Shown piece by piece: positions 42,175-47,961 of a stretch of 64,000 nt of DNA (the first letter of the stretch is position 1; every line of letters starts with the position of its first letter). The DNA is from Deltaproteobacteria bacterium (GTDB lineage: Bacteria; Myxococcota_A; Polyangia; HGW-17; SLPX01). Location: contig JAGGXR010000010.1 in assembly GCA_021162935.1 (NCBI GenBank), positions 1 through 64,000 of the forward strand, in the 5' to 3' direction. The notes beneath the pieces are model-generated. The model was not told the origin of the DNA. It ran no database searches and saw only the letters and a list, made by a program, of their open reading frames with translations. Made by a program: the position numbers and the translations under genes.

Positions 42175-42348
42175 TGGGACGCTGGGGCCAGGGTTGCGCG
42201 ATGAAGGTTTTTTTGTCTTTTCTCACTGCCGAAATGGGCTAGTATTTGGATTCCCGAGTGGCTTCCGTCGGTTGGAGGCACCATCAAGCAGGTCGGAAGG
42301 TCGTCGTTGCTCGCGGGCGAAGGCCGATTCGTCGGGAGGTAGTTGAAG

Positions 42349-44235
42349 ATGCGAGGTGTGGCGGCCCTTTGGGCTGTGATGATGTTTTGGAGCGCACCGG
42401 CTGTGGCTGGTCCGGTGCGGCGGACCGGAATTGGTGCCAGGCTGGCCACGATTCCGGTCAGTCAGATTCGGCGCGGAATGGTGGGGTATGGGCTGACCGT
42501 GTTCCACGGCACCAAGCCCGAACGGTTCCACGTTCGGGTCCTCGGGATCCTGCCGAACGCGTTTCCCCACGAGGATCTCATCGTCATCATGTGTGACGAT
42601 CCCAAGTTCAAGCATGCGGGCGTAGCGGCCGGGATGAGCGGCAGCCCCATCTATTTCAACGGCAAGATGGCCGGCGCCTTGGCCTATGGCCCCAGGTTCG
42701 CCAAGGACCCCCTGGCCATGGTAACCCCCATCGGGAACATGCTCGCCGAGTTGAAACGACCGCTGCACGGCATGGGTGGGGTTAAGCCGCCGGCTCCCAC
42801 GGCAACGTTTCCGTTCCAGCGCCGCTCCGCACGTGCCGTCGTCCGGGTGCGCAGCCGCGCCGTGGCGCTGGCTGATCGGGCTCTGGGCCGCAGTCCGCTC
42901 GTGGACCTTTCCATGACCAATCGGTTGATGGTGCCTGGTGCCGGACGCAGCGTGTTGGCCGGCGGGATTCGGCCCCTTGGACTGCCCGTCACGGTGTCTG
43001 GCTTCGATTCGGAAAGTCTGGGCGAACTGAACGGCATGCTGAAGCAATACGGCATGTTTGCAGTTCGCGGTGGAGCCGGCGGTTCGGCGGCGGTTCGTCG
43101 ATACGGCCCCCAGAAAGGATTCGTGGACGGTGGCCCCATCGGAGTGCAGTTCGTACGTGGCGATTTTACCGCCATGGCCACGGGAACAGTGACGGCGGTG
43201 GTTGGAAAGCAGTTGGTTGCCTTCGGTCATCCGTTTTTTGGAAATGGCGAGCATTACCTGCCGGCGGTCGGTGCCTGGATCCATCTCATCGTGGCGTCGA
43301 TCTACAGCAGTTACAAGATGTCGAGCCCACTGAATGAGCTGGGCAGTCTCATTCAGGACCGCCGAGCCTGCATTGCGGTGGACGAGAGGCGCCGGGCTCC
43401 CATGATCCCCTTGTCCGTGGCTGTGCGTTCCACGCGTGGGCTGTCGAAAATGTACCACGTGGACGTGCTGTCCAATCCGGCCATGGCGCCCTGGTACATG
43501 TACCTGGTGGTCAAGGCGGCCCTGCGTGACGCGGTTTCGGACATGACGAACGCTTTCGTGACCACGAAGGTGGTCATCAGGACGAAGCGTTTTGGCGCCC
43601 TGAGCTTCACGGATTACCTTTCCTCCACCAAGGGTGCCTATCGGAGCTTTTTGGCGAGTCGGAGTCGCGGCATTGCCCTGCTGCGACTGCTCTTTTCCAA
43701 TCAATTTGGCAGGGTGCAGGTCCAGGGGATGGATGTGCAGGTCAAGGTGGACTACCAGATGCGAGTCGCCAAGATCGTGGCGCTGGACGTGGAACGGCCC
43801 ACGGTGGAACCAGGTTCCATCATGAACCTGAGGGTCACCCTCCATCGTTGGCGTGCTGGGCGTTACCACGTCAATGTGCCGGTGCGCATCCCAGTGGTGC
43901 CGGACGGGTCGGTCTTGAGGATTCGCGTCGAGGCTGGGAGCCAGGTGAAGCCGGACTTCGCCCCGCCCAGGACGGTCAAGGACGTGATCCGAATCTATCG
44001 GCGGACGTACAGCTCGAAACAGTTGGTGGTCACGGTGCGAACCGCCGGTGAGGGAACGACCGTTGGTGACCGGCTGATTACGGAGCTGCCTGGGTCTGTG
44101 CTGGACTCGATGCGTTCGGCGACCCACGCCGAGAATTCGAAGGTTTTGACCAAGGCCTGGCGCAAGGTCATGTGGCTCGGCAACATGCTCATGGGGAGCA
44201 AGGACATCAGGATACGGGTTCAGAGCCGAAGGTGA
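42349..44235 (+). CDS. SpoIVB-like (peptidase S55) exported protein
   Basis: 628 aa starting at ATG 42349 with GGGAGG upstream and a signal peptide (LWAVMMFWSAPAVAG). The first 140 mature residues match the S55 protease domain: RRGMVGYGLTVFHGTKPERF with H53, DLIVIMCDD, GVAAGMSGSPIYFNGKMAGALAYG with the candidate nucleophile S97, and FAKDPLAMVTPIGNML. The remainder is large: a long basic linker and beta-rich domains (GTVTAVVGKQLVAFGHPFFGNGEH is a second family-typical block). SpoIVB cleaves a substrate in the sporulation signalling pathway of Bacillus; in a Gram-negative without sporulation genes here the role is unknown. It may be functionally linked to the beta-propeller gene that follows by 74 bp. 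Confidence 0.82.
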   Translation: MRGVAALWAVMMFWSAPAVAGPVRRTGIGARLATIPVSQIRRGMVGYGLTVFHGTKPERFHVRVLGILPNAFPHEDLIVIMCDDPKFKHAGVAAGMSGSPIYFNGKMAGALAYGPRFAKDPLAMVTPIGNMLAELKRPLHGMGGVKPPAPTATFPFQRRSARAVVRVRSRAVALADRALGRSPLVDLSMTNRLMVPGAGRSVLAGGIRPLGLPVTVSGFDSESLGELNGMLKQYGMFAVRGGAGGSAAVRRYGPQKGFVDGGPIGVQFVRGDFTAMATGTVTAVVGKQLVAFGHPFFGNGEHYLPAVGAWIHLIVASIYSSYKMSSPLNELGSLIQDRRACIAVDERRRAPMIPLSVAVRSTRGLSKMYHVDVLSNPAMAPWYMYLVVKAALRDAVSDMTNAFVTTKVVIRTKRFGALSFTDYLSSTKGAYRSFLASRSRGIALLRLLFSNQFGRVQVQGMDVQVKVDYQMRVAKIVALDVERPTVEPGSIMNLRVTLHRWRAGRYHVNVPVRIPVVPDGSVLRIRVEAGSQVKPDFAPPRTVKDVIRIYRRTYSSKQLVVTVRTAGEGTTVGDRLITELPGSVLDSMRSATHAENSKVLTKAWRKVMWLGNMLMGSKDIRIRVQSRR

Positions 44236-44309
44236 CGAGTAGGGTAGGATTCTCCCATGGGTCATGGACAGAAACAGTGACGGAACGAGAGAGCAATCGA
44301 GGTAGATGG

Positions 44310-46520
44310 ATGCGAGACACGAGTTGCAGTTGGAAGAACGGATGTTCCAAGGCGAAGCGGACAGAGGCGACGAGAGGGACCACAAGCATCTGGGGCCGAT
44401 TGGCGGCCATGCGGGGGCGGCTGGTGCGGTCTATTGGAATGGGGCTCGTCGTCTTGGCGGCCTGTTCCTGGTCGGCTTCGGCGCGGGCGGTGAGCACCCA
44501 GGTGTGGGTGAACCAGACCTACGCTGATTTCAACCAGGGCGAGGGCCACGGTGTGCTGGTCGATTCGCGAGGACTGCTGCGGCCCGGCCTCGTGCTCAAG
44601 CGGCGAGCCGTCAAGGGCGTGTCCCTCGTGTTCGCCTTGCTCGAGCATGGTGGCAAGGTGTATGTGGGCACCGGGGACAAGGGTGAGGTGTGGGTCTTCG
44701 ATGGTTTTCGAGCGAAGAAGCTGGTTTCTCTTCCCGGTGCCGTGCTCGTGACCAGTCTGGTGGCGGGACCGAAAACGACCATCTATGCGGGAACGATTCC
44801 GGAGGGAAAGATCTTCGCTGTCGACACGAGGACGGGCAAGGCCCGTCTGTTCGCCAAGCTCAAGGCCAAGCACATCTGGGCCATGGTGGCCGAACCGAAA
44901 ACTGGCGCCATTTTTGCCGGGACTGGGCCCAAGGGCGAGCTGTACCGGGTTTCTGCGGCTGGCAAGGCGACCCTCTACTGGAAGGCGCCCGACAAGCATG
45001 TGTTGGCCCTGACCTATGGGCCGGGCGGCGCCCTCTATGCCGGCACTTCGCCCAAGGCTATCGTCTATCGCCTCGTGAGGAAGGGCGTGGCCAGGGCGGT
45101 TCACGACTTCGACGCCACCGAGGTGCGGGCGCTCGCGGGCAACCGTCGGGTGCTCTATGCGGCGGTCAACAAGATCAAGGGCCCAAGGACTTGGTCGGTG
45201 AAGGTGCCGTCGCGTCACAAGAAAGCGGGGACGGCTGTCCACGGCGTCGTTCGTAAGCGTCCTCCCGAAATTCGTATTCCACGTCTGGGAGCAAAGAAGG
45301 GCATGGGCGGCGTGTTTCGTATCTGGGGAACCGGTGCCGCCGAACAGCTCTACGGTTTGAAGCAGAGCTACTTTACGAGCCTGGAACTGACGGGCAACGA
45401 CAACGTCTATGCCGCCGAGGGCATGCGAGGACAGGTGTTGCTGCTGGGGCGGGATCACAGCGTGGCCACCGTGGCAGACGTGAAGGAGCGGCAGGCCCTT
45501 TCGTTGCATCTGACCGGCAGGATCCGCTGCATTGGAACCGGCGATGCCGGCGCCCTGCACGTGATGGTCCCAAGGGGTGCGAGACGATACCTGTCCAAGG
45601 CGTTTGACGCTGGTTCGGCGAGCCGTTGGGGGCGTCTCGATCTGGCCGCTTCGGGGAACTTGGCCATCGAGACGCGGACCGGCAACACGGCCAAACCAGA
45701 CGCGGGATGGAGCCGTTGGCAGCCTCTCGCCCGACTGGCCATGCTCGCCGGCGGGCGTCGTGGCGGCTTGGTGGCGAGCCAGCCTGGTCGCTACCTACAG
45801 TATCGGATTACCCTGAGGAGTCCTCGCGCCCGGGTCACCGGGGTCCGCCTCTATTTTGTTCCCATCAATCGGCGCCCCAGGATTGCGAGTGTCACGATTG
45901 GCAACCAGGGCGCTCAGAAGACCAAGTCCAAGGTGCTCAAGGCGTCTTGGCTCACCAAGGTGACGAGCGCGGCTCCGAGCAGCTACAAGGTGTCCTGGAA
46001 AGTGGACAACCCCGATGGTGATGCGCTCGTTTATCGTCTGTACTATCGTGTCGTGGGCAGCGCCCTGTGGCGCAAGTTGGGTTGGTCGCAAACGCCTCTG
46101 ACCGGCACGTCGGTCACCTGGAAGACGGTCAATTTGCCCGATGGCTGGTACTTGGTGCGGGTCGTGGCATCGGACGAACGGTCGAACGCCGCTGGTCGAG
46201 CCAAGTCGGATACCTGGATCAGTGAGCCGTTCCTGGTGGACAACGTCAAGCCGGCCGTTCGGGCGCTCGTGGTCCGCGTTCCGCGTGTGTTCGGCACGTC
46301 GGTCGATTCCTTTAGTCGCATCGTGGGGATCCAGTATTCGCTGGACGCTCAGAATTGGTTCCCAGTGGATCCGACCGACGGTGCCTTCGACCAGAGGGCC
46401 GAGAACTTCTCGTTCAGACTTCCTTCCGGTATGAGGCGCGGCCCTGCCTTGCTCCTGATCCGGGTCTTCGATGCGGCTGGCAATTCCGTGGTGGTCAAGA
46501 AGGCGTTTCGAGTGCGTTGA
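44310..46520 (+). CDS. Exported beta-propeller protein with C-terminal Fn3-like domain
   Basis: About 736 aa from ATG 44310 (GAGGT upstream); ATG 44409 would give a shorter, more standard signal (MGLVVLAACSWSASARA), so the start is uncertain. The mature part has repeats of beta blades, each with an aliphatic-Gly-Thr pattern: KVYVGTGDKGEVWVFDG, TIYAGTIPEGKIFAVD, AIFAGTGPKGELYRVS, ALYAGTSPKAIVYRLV, VYAAEG. This is a WD40/SMP-30-like propeller without enzyme signature. Residues about 480-600 look like a discoidin or jelly-roll domain (GRYLQYRITLRSPRARVTGVRLYFV), then a Fn3-like segment (SYKVSWKVDNPDGDALVYRLYYR). Probably a secreted or periplasmic binding protein. Confidence 0.82.
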   Translation: MRDTSCSWKNGCSKAKRTEATRGTTSIWGRLAAMRGRLVRSIGMGLVVLAACSWSASARAVSTQVWVNQTYADFNQGEGHGVLVDSRGLLRPGLVLKRRAVKGVSLVFALLEHGGKVYVGTGDKGEVWVFDGFRAKKLVSLPGAVLVTSLVAGPKTTIYAGTIPEGKIFAVDTRTGKARLFAKLKAKHIWAMVAEPKTGAIFAGTGPKGELYRVSAAGKATLYWKAPDKHVLALTYGPGGALYAGTSPKAIVYRLVRKGVARAVHDFDATEVRALAGNRRVLYAAVNKIKGPRTWSVKVPSRHKKAGTAVHGVVRKRPPEIRIPRLGAKKGMGGVFRIWGTGAAEQLYGLKQSYFTSLELTGNDNVYAAEGMRGQVLLLGRDHSVATVADVKERQALSLHLTGRIRCIGTGDAGALHVMVPRGARRYLSKAFDAGSASRWGRLDLAASGNLAIETRTGNTAKPDAGWSRWQPLARLAMLAGGRRGGLVASQPGRYLQYRITLRSPRARVTGVRLYFVPINRRPRIASVTIGNQGAQKTKSKVLKASWLTKVTSAAPSSYKVSWKVDNPDGDALVYRLYYRVVGSALWRKLGWSQTPLTGTSVTWKTVNLPDGWYLVRVVASDERSNAAGRAKSDTWISEPFLVDNVKPAVRALVVRVPRVFGTSVDSFSRIVGIQYSLDAQNWFPVDPTDGAFDQRAENFSFRLPSGMRRGPALLLIRVFDAAGNSVVVKKAFRVR

Positions 46521-46552
46521 TCAGGGTGTGCGTTCGGGAATGAGAATCAGAC

Positions 46553-46628
46553 AAAAAAAAGACCAGAACTTCTCCGTCCGATGTCGTCAGGGGGGCAACG
46601 GCCATGGGAACGGGGGGAATTCCGGTCT
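46553..46628 (-). terminator. Intrinsic terminator of the candidate small RNA
   Basis: Minus-strand stem GACCGGAA/TTCTGGTC, extendable to 11 bp with G-U pairs, closing a long loop and followed by eight T. The wide loop makes this also the main fold of the RNA. It could alternatively terminate readthrough, but no minus-strand gene lies upstream of it. Confidence 0.6.
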
Positions 46629-46653
46629 GATTCAGATTTCTTCCGTCTAACTA
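46553..46653 (-). ncRNA. Candidate small RNA (about 100 nt) with own promoter and terminator
   Basis: On the minus strand a near-consensus promoter (46688-46660) would start a transcript near 46653. It ends about 100 nt later at an intrinsic terminator: the arm 46628-46618 (AGACCGGAATT) pairs with 46571-46560 (AAGTTCTGGTCT) apart from G-U pairs, followed by eight T (46560-46553). There is no ORF with a ribosome site inside. The enclosed loop holds two C6 tracts (at about 46612-46617 and 46590-46595 on the complementary strand), complementary to Shine-Dalgarno sequences, which suggests a regulator of translation. It is not 6S, SRP or tmRNA by sequence. Confidence 0.6.
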
Positions 46654-46659
46654 ATTATT

Positions 46660-46688
46660 CCTATAATGCATGACTCCTTACATGTCAA
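46660..46688 (-). promoter_or_regulatory. Near-consensus sigma-70 promoter of the small RNA
   Basis: TTGACA (46688-46683), a 17-nt spacer, TATAGG (46665-46660). The same bases read on the plus strand give TATAAT at 46662-46667, which could serve as -10 for tgt although its -35 is poor. The two would be divergent and mutually exclusive. Confidence 0.65.
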
Positions 46689-46866
46689 CCCTTAAAACGG
46701 AATTATGACTGTTTTTGTGATTTTTGTTGTTTTTTTGGTCCGCCCATGACACTGGCTGCCAAATGGTCTGCACAGGGCCCTTTCGCAGGTCATTCGTTCT
46801 GTACTCGACTGAAATAGCGTGTTTTTCGATCATGCCGAGTCCCAATGACCCGAAGGAGAGATGTCG

Positions 46867-47961
46867 ATGAAGTTTTCCGTTGTGGCACGATCGGGAACGA
46901 GCCGTGCCGGTGTCTTGGATCTCGCCCACGCCCGGGTCGAGACTCCTGTGTTCATGCCCGTTGGTACCTATGGGACGGTCAAGGGCCTGGATCCTTCGGC
47001 GATCGAGTCCCTCGGTTTTCGGCTGGTCCTCTCGAATTCGTATCACCTTCATCTGTCGCCAGGAGAAGATTTGGTGGCGGCCGCCGGGGGCCTGCAGCGG
47101 TTCATGGGATGGCCGGGTGCGGTGCTGACTGATTCGGGGGGCTACCAGCTTTTTAGCCTCAAGGACGTGGTGAAGGTAACTGACGAGGGGGTCGAGAGTC
47201 GTTCGCCCCTGGACGGGGCGCGTGAGTTCATCACCCCGGAACGCATGGTTCAGGTCCAGGTGCGCCTGGGGGTGGACATCGCCATGGTCCTGGACCATTG
47301 TCCACCTTCGGACGCGCCCAAGGACAAGGTGGCAGAGGCCATGGAGCGGACCACGAGGTGGGCGAAGCGCTGCCTCACCGTGGCGAGGCCCGACGAAACT
47401 GCTTTGTTCGGCATCGTCCAGGGCGGGGTGCACCTCGACCTGCGACGGGCGCACCTGGACGAGGTGGCGTCTCTGCCGTTCGATGGCTTGGCCCTGGGAG
47501 GCTTCAGTGTGGGCGAGCCGCCCGACGTGATGCACGAACTCGTCGACGACCTGGCACCCAGGTTGCCCGACGAGCGGCCGCGTTATCTGATGGGCGTGGG
47601 CACGCCCATCGATCTCATTCGATCCGTTCAGGCGGGTATGGACATGTTTGATTGCGTCATGCCCACGAGGCACGCCAGAAACGGACAGCTCTTTACCTCG
47701 CGTGGCCGCATCAACGTGGCCAATGCCCGGTTCCGCACGGACATGGACCCGCCGGATCCGGCGTGCGGATGCCCCACCTGCCGCCGATTCTCCACGGCCT
47801 ATCTGAGCCATCTCTATCGCCGCAAGGAGATCCTTTATTCCGTCCTGGCCACGACCCATAATCTGTGGTTTTACCGCCAACTCATGACGGATCTGCGCCA
47901 GGCGATCCTCGATGGCCATCTCGAAGAAACGGCTCACCGGCTCTCACAGCCCTGGTTGTAA
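46867..47961 (+). CDS. tgt: Queuine/preQ1 tRNA-ribosyltransferase
   Basis: 364 aa starting at ATG 46867; AAGGAG (46853-46858) is 8 nt upstream, whereas the ATG at 46861 is only 2 nt from it. TGT exchanges guanine 34 of GUN-anticodon tRNAs for preQ1 on the way to queuosine. Signatures: TPVFMPVGTYGTVKG, LSNSYHLHL, the catalytic LTDSGGYQLFSL, IAMVLDHCPP with the first Asp, FGIVQGG, LGGFSVGEP, YLMGVGTP, MFDCVMPTRHARNG (nucleophilic Asp) and the zinc site CGCPTCRRFSTAYLSHLYR (Cys x3, then H). The region upstream has a 340-bp gap holding the candidate small RNA on the opposite strand. No queA or queC neighbour is visible. Confidence 0.96.
   Translation: MKFSVVARSGTSRAGVLDLAHARVETPVFMPVGTYGTVKGLDPSAIESLGFRLVLSNSYHLHLSPGEDLVAAAGGLQRFMGWPGAVLTDSGGYQLFSLKDVVKVTDEGVESRSPLDGAREFITPERMVQVQVRLGVDIAMVLDHCPPSDAPKDKVAEAMERTTRWAKRCLTVARPDETALFGIVQGGVHLDLRRAHLDEVASLPFDGLALGGFSVGEPPDVMHELVDDLAPRLPDERPRYLMGVGTPIDLIRSVQAGMDMFDCVMPTRHARNGQLFTSRGRINVANARFRTDMDPPDPACGCPTCRRFSTAYLSHLYRRKEILYSVLATTHNLWFYRQLMTDLRQAILDGHLEETAHRLSQPWL

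Follow-up and report, generated by a model that had tools for sequence, protein, structure and literature searches.

A conserved hairpin with a C6 loop as a candidate trans-acting small RNA in an uncultured order of myxobacteria

Does the DNA opposite the leader of tgt encode a small RNA of its own, and if so, how might such an RNA act? The question was raised by the minus strand of the 64-kb window (the whole stretch of DNA analysed, 64,000 nt), which from 46688 to 46553 reads TTGACA, 17 nt, TATAGG and, 31 nt later, a long hairpin ending in T8. The original prediction regarded this arrangement as the promoter and terminator of a free-standing small RNA with no gene between them, and the sequence bears out each of these elements. 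TTGACA-N17-TATA occurs once in the window, against 0.00 expected from 100 shuffles, and a generic sigma-70 scan overlooked it because that scan accepts only -10 boxes whose sixth base is T. We infer that the RNA starts about 7 nt past the -10 box, near 46653. The list of open reading frames contains no gene of substance between the end of the convergent frame at 46520 and the start of tgt at 46861. The transcription signals and parts of the predicted RNA are as follows.

46683..46688, minus strand: -35 hexamer TTGACA, read from the sequence, with identical hexamer and identical spacing in genomes G002, G005 and G003
46660..46665, minus strand: -10 hexamer TATAGG, after the 17-nt spacer
46629..46653, minus strand: predicted 5' leader, without sequence conservation in the alignment
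46553..46628, minus strand: conserved hairpin body and terminator, 76 nt, supported by covariation and a covariance-model score of 91.2 bits
46612..46617, minus strand: C6 tract in the 5' arm, partly paired and not conserved
46589..46596, minus strand: apical loop GCCCCCCU, the proposed pairing seed, identical in 10 of 10 copies in the order
46553..46560, minus strand: U8 tract of the intrinsic terminator, read from the sequence

The distribution of the hairpin was determined by several searches. BLASTN of the region detected one copy in its own genome and matches of 79-91% identity, limited to the hairpin, in eight genomes of the same order. A covariance model of the 76-nt hairpin, built from nine copies, recognised this hairpin as its single match in the window. 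Searching related genomes for the stem and loop had been proposed as a check, and 10 of the order's 13 genomes gave a match of about E 1e-19 or better. Every one of the six near-complete genomes (at least 90%) is among them; the three without a full-length match are 65-73% complete. When the other 305 genomes of the class were searched with stricter filters, one clear further copy was found in G013, which belongs to another order; it is weaker (E 4.5e-9) and structurally equivalent. Weak matches of 20-31 bits elsewhere were rejected, since those inspected proved to be ordinary terminators, matched through the basal stem only, or unrelated hairpins. A pattern of 20 specified bases matched nine contigs among 84,980 named genomes, all of them metagenome-assembled genomes labelled Myxococcota, Polyangiaceae or Deltaproteobacteria. 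One of these contigs, L024, carries 76 nt identical to G007 and evidently represents the same genome. A single viral contig matched the 16-base core without the conserved flanks, which looks like chance, and the plasmid collection yielded no match. Likewise, cmscan against Rfam of the window, five relatives and G013, at both the gathering score and a permissive E-value, returned nothing credible. The best Rfam similarity to the window was to the mmgR/suhB RNA (RF00519), through C-rich stretches and the U tract; its score of 13.6 bits (E 3.4) falls short of the cut-off of 41 and is at chance level, and it was dismissed. The RNA looks like a new, previously uncatalogued family of a known type of small RNA.

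The predicted transcript folds into an 11-bp basal stem, short helices and an 8-nt apical loop. Its folding energy is unremarkable (z -1.4) and was rejected as sole evidence; the structure is significant because of covariation across relatives. In the nine aligned copies, standard pairs make up 97.4% of pair cells and 12 of the 26 pairs have changed on both sides, neither value being matched by any shuffle (0/500), and pairing falls to 36-56% when the partners are slid by 1-3 columns. RNAalifold, run without a supplied structure, recovered the same helix with one extra pair. The 30 G-U cells against three A-C cells, together with the U tract, establish that the RNA is the minus strand. The G013 copy has a C7 loop on a stalk made up of other base pairs (folding z -5.8). 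That a promoter-like sequence and a hairpin merely fell together by chance would agree with a folding energy that alone is not exceptional, but covariation and conservation across families refute it, and its probability is negligible. From sequence comparison, a conserved, structured and independently encoded RNA is well supported, its expression being predicted.

Is the hairpin the end of its own gene, or does it serve its neighbours? The flanking features on the plus strand are as follows.

44172..46520, plus strand: convergent gene, secreted and beta-propeller/fibronectin-like by appearance, with its true start probably further in
46662..46667, plus strand: TATAAT overlapping the -10 box of the predicted RNA, without a recognisable -35
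46861..47961, plus strand: tgt, queuine tRNA-ribosyltransferase (PF01702, E 1.5e-140)

In the copies of the order the covarying basal stem is followed by a U tract, present in 10 of 10 though interrupted in some, as in an intrinsic terminator. The U tract, and the convergent gene that the hairpin faces in families f1, f2 and f3, would also be expected if the hairpin were a strong terminator for adjacent transcripts with no function in trans. Such a role is very unlikely, however: a terminator has no need of an invariant 8-nt loop 26 pairs away from the U tract, yet this loop is the most conserved part of the hairpin; the window has no same-strand gene ending ahead of the hairpin; and the hairpin has its own promoter in three families. 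In these (G000, G002, G005 and G003), TTGACA-17-TAnnnn ends 28-32 nt ahead of the stem. The promoter is weaker in G010 and G004 of family f4, and in G006-G009 of the same family no good sigma-70 promoter could be recognised; the full-length hairpins on L036/L024 (G007) and L034 (G006) stand without one. Family f4 may depend on a different sigma factor or on a start lying further away. Loss of promoter and hairpin beside retained flanking genes had been named as the observation that would speak against a small RNA gene; instead, hairpin, promoter and convergent gene are found together in G002 and G005. The convergent gene has no Pfam match in this genome and an fn3 match in the G002 relative; it is a conserved neighbour in families f1 and f2, with 48% identity to its counterpart in G002 and G005. 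An open reading frame with a match to the SpoIVB peptidase S55 domain (42343-44235, plus strand, E 3.9e-6) adjoins this propeller gene, in a genome that is not of a Firmicute. In addition, an inverted repeat, GAATCAGAC/GTCTGATTC, seen in this genome only, brackets the hairpin beyond the U tract (46544-46552 and 46625-46633), so a read-through transcript would form a longer hairpin.

The other neighbour, tgt, was originally proposed to be transcribed from the overlapping TATAAT, so that the two transcripts might exclude each other. A cis element of this kind, with overlapping divergent promoters linked to tgt, would explain why the -10 box overlaps a TATAAT on the plus strand, and the overlap is real. 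The promoter role for tgt is not supported: about 195 nt separate TATAAT from the tgt start, at most about 3 of 6 bases match a -35 at spacers of 16-18, as read from the sequence, and TATAAT is absent from G002 and G005, where the -10 box is TACGAT. Moreover, the ribosome site of tgt, AAGGAGAG, has no G6 tract. Mutual exclusion is likewise not supported, as both the tgt neighbour and the overlap are private to this genome. Among the relatives examined tgt is the divergent neighbour only here; uvrD lies upstream of the RNA in f2, and in f4 the divergent gene is a TonB_C gene in two genomes and one related to it in a third. A tgt-linked element is therefore highly improbable. Given the differing neighbours and the promoter of its own, a free-standing gene with its own promoter and terminator fits better than a cis element, and conservation and covariation support this part of the original prediction.

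What, then, could the loop do? Within the order, no copy departs from the loop GCCCCCCU or from the helix CGUU/GACG, whereas the basal stem carries compensated changes. Two C6 loops had been proposed. Both tracts exist, but 46595-46590 alone is a loop and invariant; the tract at 46617-46612 is replaced in other families by AGTC, AGTT or AGCT-like sequence.

C-rich loops of this kind are known from several bacterial RNAs. The loop on the terminator hairpin of RepG (HPnc5490) of Helicobacter pylori base-pairs with a run of G residues in the leader of an mRNA (PMC8295292). The present RNA resembles RepG in being free-standing with a putative pairing loop on its own terminator hairpin, a likeness of anatomy; RepG belongs to another phylum, has a C/U-rich loop, and is known to target a G repeat of variable length. 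In Actinobacteria, the C6 loops of 6C RNA/B11 (RF01066) pair with a six-G leader tract, as demonstrated by compensatory mutations (PMC10470900), and B11 is independent of RNA chaperones according to the title of Mai et al. 2019, cited in the same paper. 6C RNA has two hairpins with C-rich loops, whereas the present RNA is one interrupted hairpin with one conserved C6 loop, and no match to RF01066 was detected in its own genome or by cmscan of the window, five relatives and G013. sX13 of Xanthomonas uses C-rich loops at G-rich sites near start codons and does not need Hfq (PMC3771888); it differs in having three separate stem-loops with C4/C5 loops. Closer in lineage is Pxr of Myxococcus xanthus, in which primers reveal a C6 tract at nt 28-33 in SL1 (PMC5568312) and a C-to-A change in the SL1 loop abolishes function (PMC5684412). 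Both are myxobacterial RNAs from a lineage without Hfq, which is reported absent from myxobacteria (PMC5684412). Nevertheless, Pxr has three stem-loops, a separate terminator hairpin and a sigma-54 promoter, unlike the single interrupted hairpin and sigma-70-type promoter described here. Similarity to the published parts of pxr, with 14 nt left out, is limited to TTCCCCCC, which 48% of shuffles equal, and no pxr pattern was found in a sample of the phylum. That the present RNA works like RepG, 6C/B11 and sX13 is the best explanation by analogy, and perhaps it works like Pxr.

Together with the conserved anatomy, these analogies make it probable that the locus encodes a free-standing small RNA of about 100 nt that acts in trans. 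It would be independently transcribed, and its one long hairpin would serve both as intrinsic terminator and as a stalk displaying the invariant 8-nt loop. The loop would initiate duplexes with AGGGGGGC-like tracts in the leaders or ribosome-binding regions of mRNAs, altering the translation or stability of these mRNAs, most likely by repression. Such pairing would proceed without Hfq; no match to PF17209 was found in the 13 genomes, and the control search was positive in E. coli and others. The analysis shows conservation, structure, strand, a promoter in four genomes, a free-standing position and the absence of Hfq; that the RNA is expressed, that it acts by pairing, in which direction and on which targets is what we infer in this proposal. 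The original suggestion that the C tracts pair with ribosome sites survives in part: the C-rich loop is suited to G-rich sites, but it is likelier to act on selected G6 sites than as a general anti-Shine-Dalgarno element, because C6 perfectly matches AGGGGGGC and not plain AGGAGG.

The main rival holds that this conserved small RNA uses its C6 hairpin mainly to bind a protein, as a regulator sponge or scaffold, and not as an antisense seed. The CGUU/GACG helix around the loop is conserved more strictly than a pairing seed would demand, which a protein site could also explain. Loop and closing helix are invariant whereas the basal stem only covaries, and no target conserved across families was found. 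Against it, hairpin C tracts have a tested pairing role in several bacteria, and the C7 of G013 indicates that loop length can change. Protein binding is an unlikely alternative, and pairing through the C6 loop stays the preferred reading.

Candidate targets were sought on this reading. AGGGGGG stands 2-10 nt ahead of ATG at 58 places in the own genome against 21 in the reversed control, an excess that Shine-Dalgarno sites alone could explain. After filtering for a credible downstream gene, the list includes an HlyD-type membrane-fusion gene (L182) and an AcrB-type transporter (L185), whose duplexes have energies of -16.5 and -19.1 kcal/mol, whereas 34 window genes average -9.8, a comparison biased by selection on the motif. 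In G008, an ExbB/TolQ gene has AGGGGGGC before its start. A leader in G001 contains GTCAGGGGGGCAACGGC, which is perfectly complementary over 17 nt to the apical hairpin of f1/f2; a simple count puts the expectation for any one 17-mer in this genome at about 0.0004 occurrences. A second copy with one inserted base follows about 75 nt on, upstream of an open reading frame with a sub-threshold PHP-associated match. The region was considered as a diverged copy of the RNA and rejected, since the bare loop alone matches and it does not fold into the stalk; the incomplete assembly of G001 yielded no copy of the RNA itself. Across the order, antisense sites extended to 15 nt, with up to 2 mismatches allowed, are scattered and mostly degenerate with no shared gene recognised, and none of the predicted targets recurs across families. 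In a doubtful, speculative extension, envelope and surface proteins would form a leader-based regulon with the RNA as its hub, and the G sites would have spread in some relatives as duplicated or dispersed leader elements, RNA and repeat co-evolving.

Pxr, a well-studied myxobacterial small RNA, is still without confirmed direct targets (PMC11928866). If a C6-loop RNA is conserved across families in an uncultured order of myxobacteria, pairing with G tracts from a stiff hairpin may be a widespread way of managing without Hfq in that group; it would be a new RNA family to catalogue, and GCCCCCCU supplies a precise seed for testing.

Complementary sequences were also observed in more than one copy. 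In G001, L094:1330-1560 (G001:C355) contains two near-identical GTCAGGGGGGC(T)AACGGC sites complementary to the apical hairpin, with an array of 19-nt direct repeats further upstream. G007 has six copies of a dispersed repeat (L097, L101, L103, L104, L105 and L106), mostly at contig ends; every copy includes GCATCAGGGGGGCAAA, in which 12 nt are complementary to the RNA. Three of them stand 150-220 nt upstream of lipoprotein-like open reading frames and one before a tRNA-like sequence.
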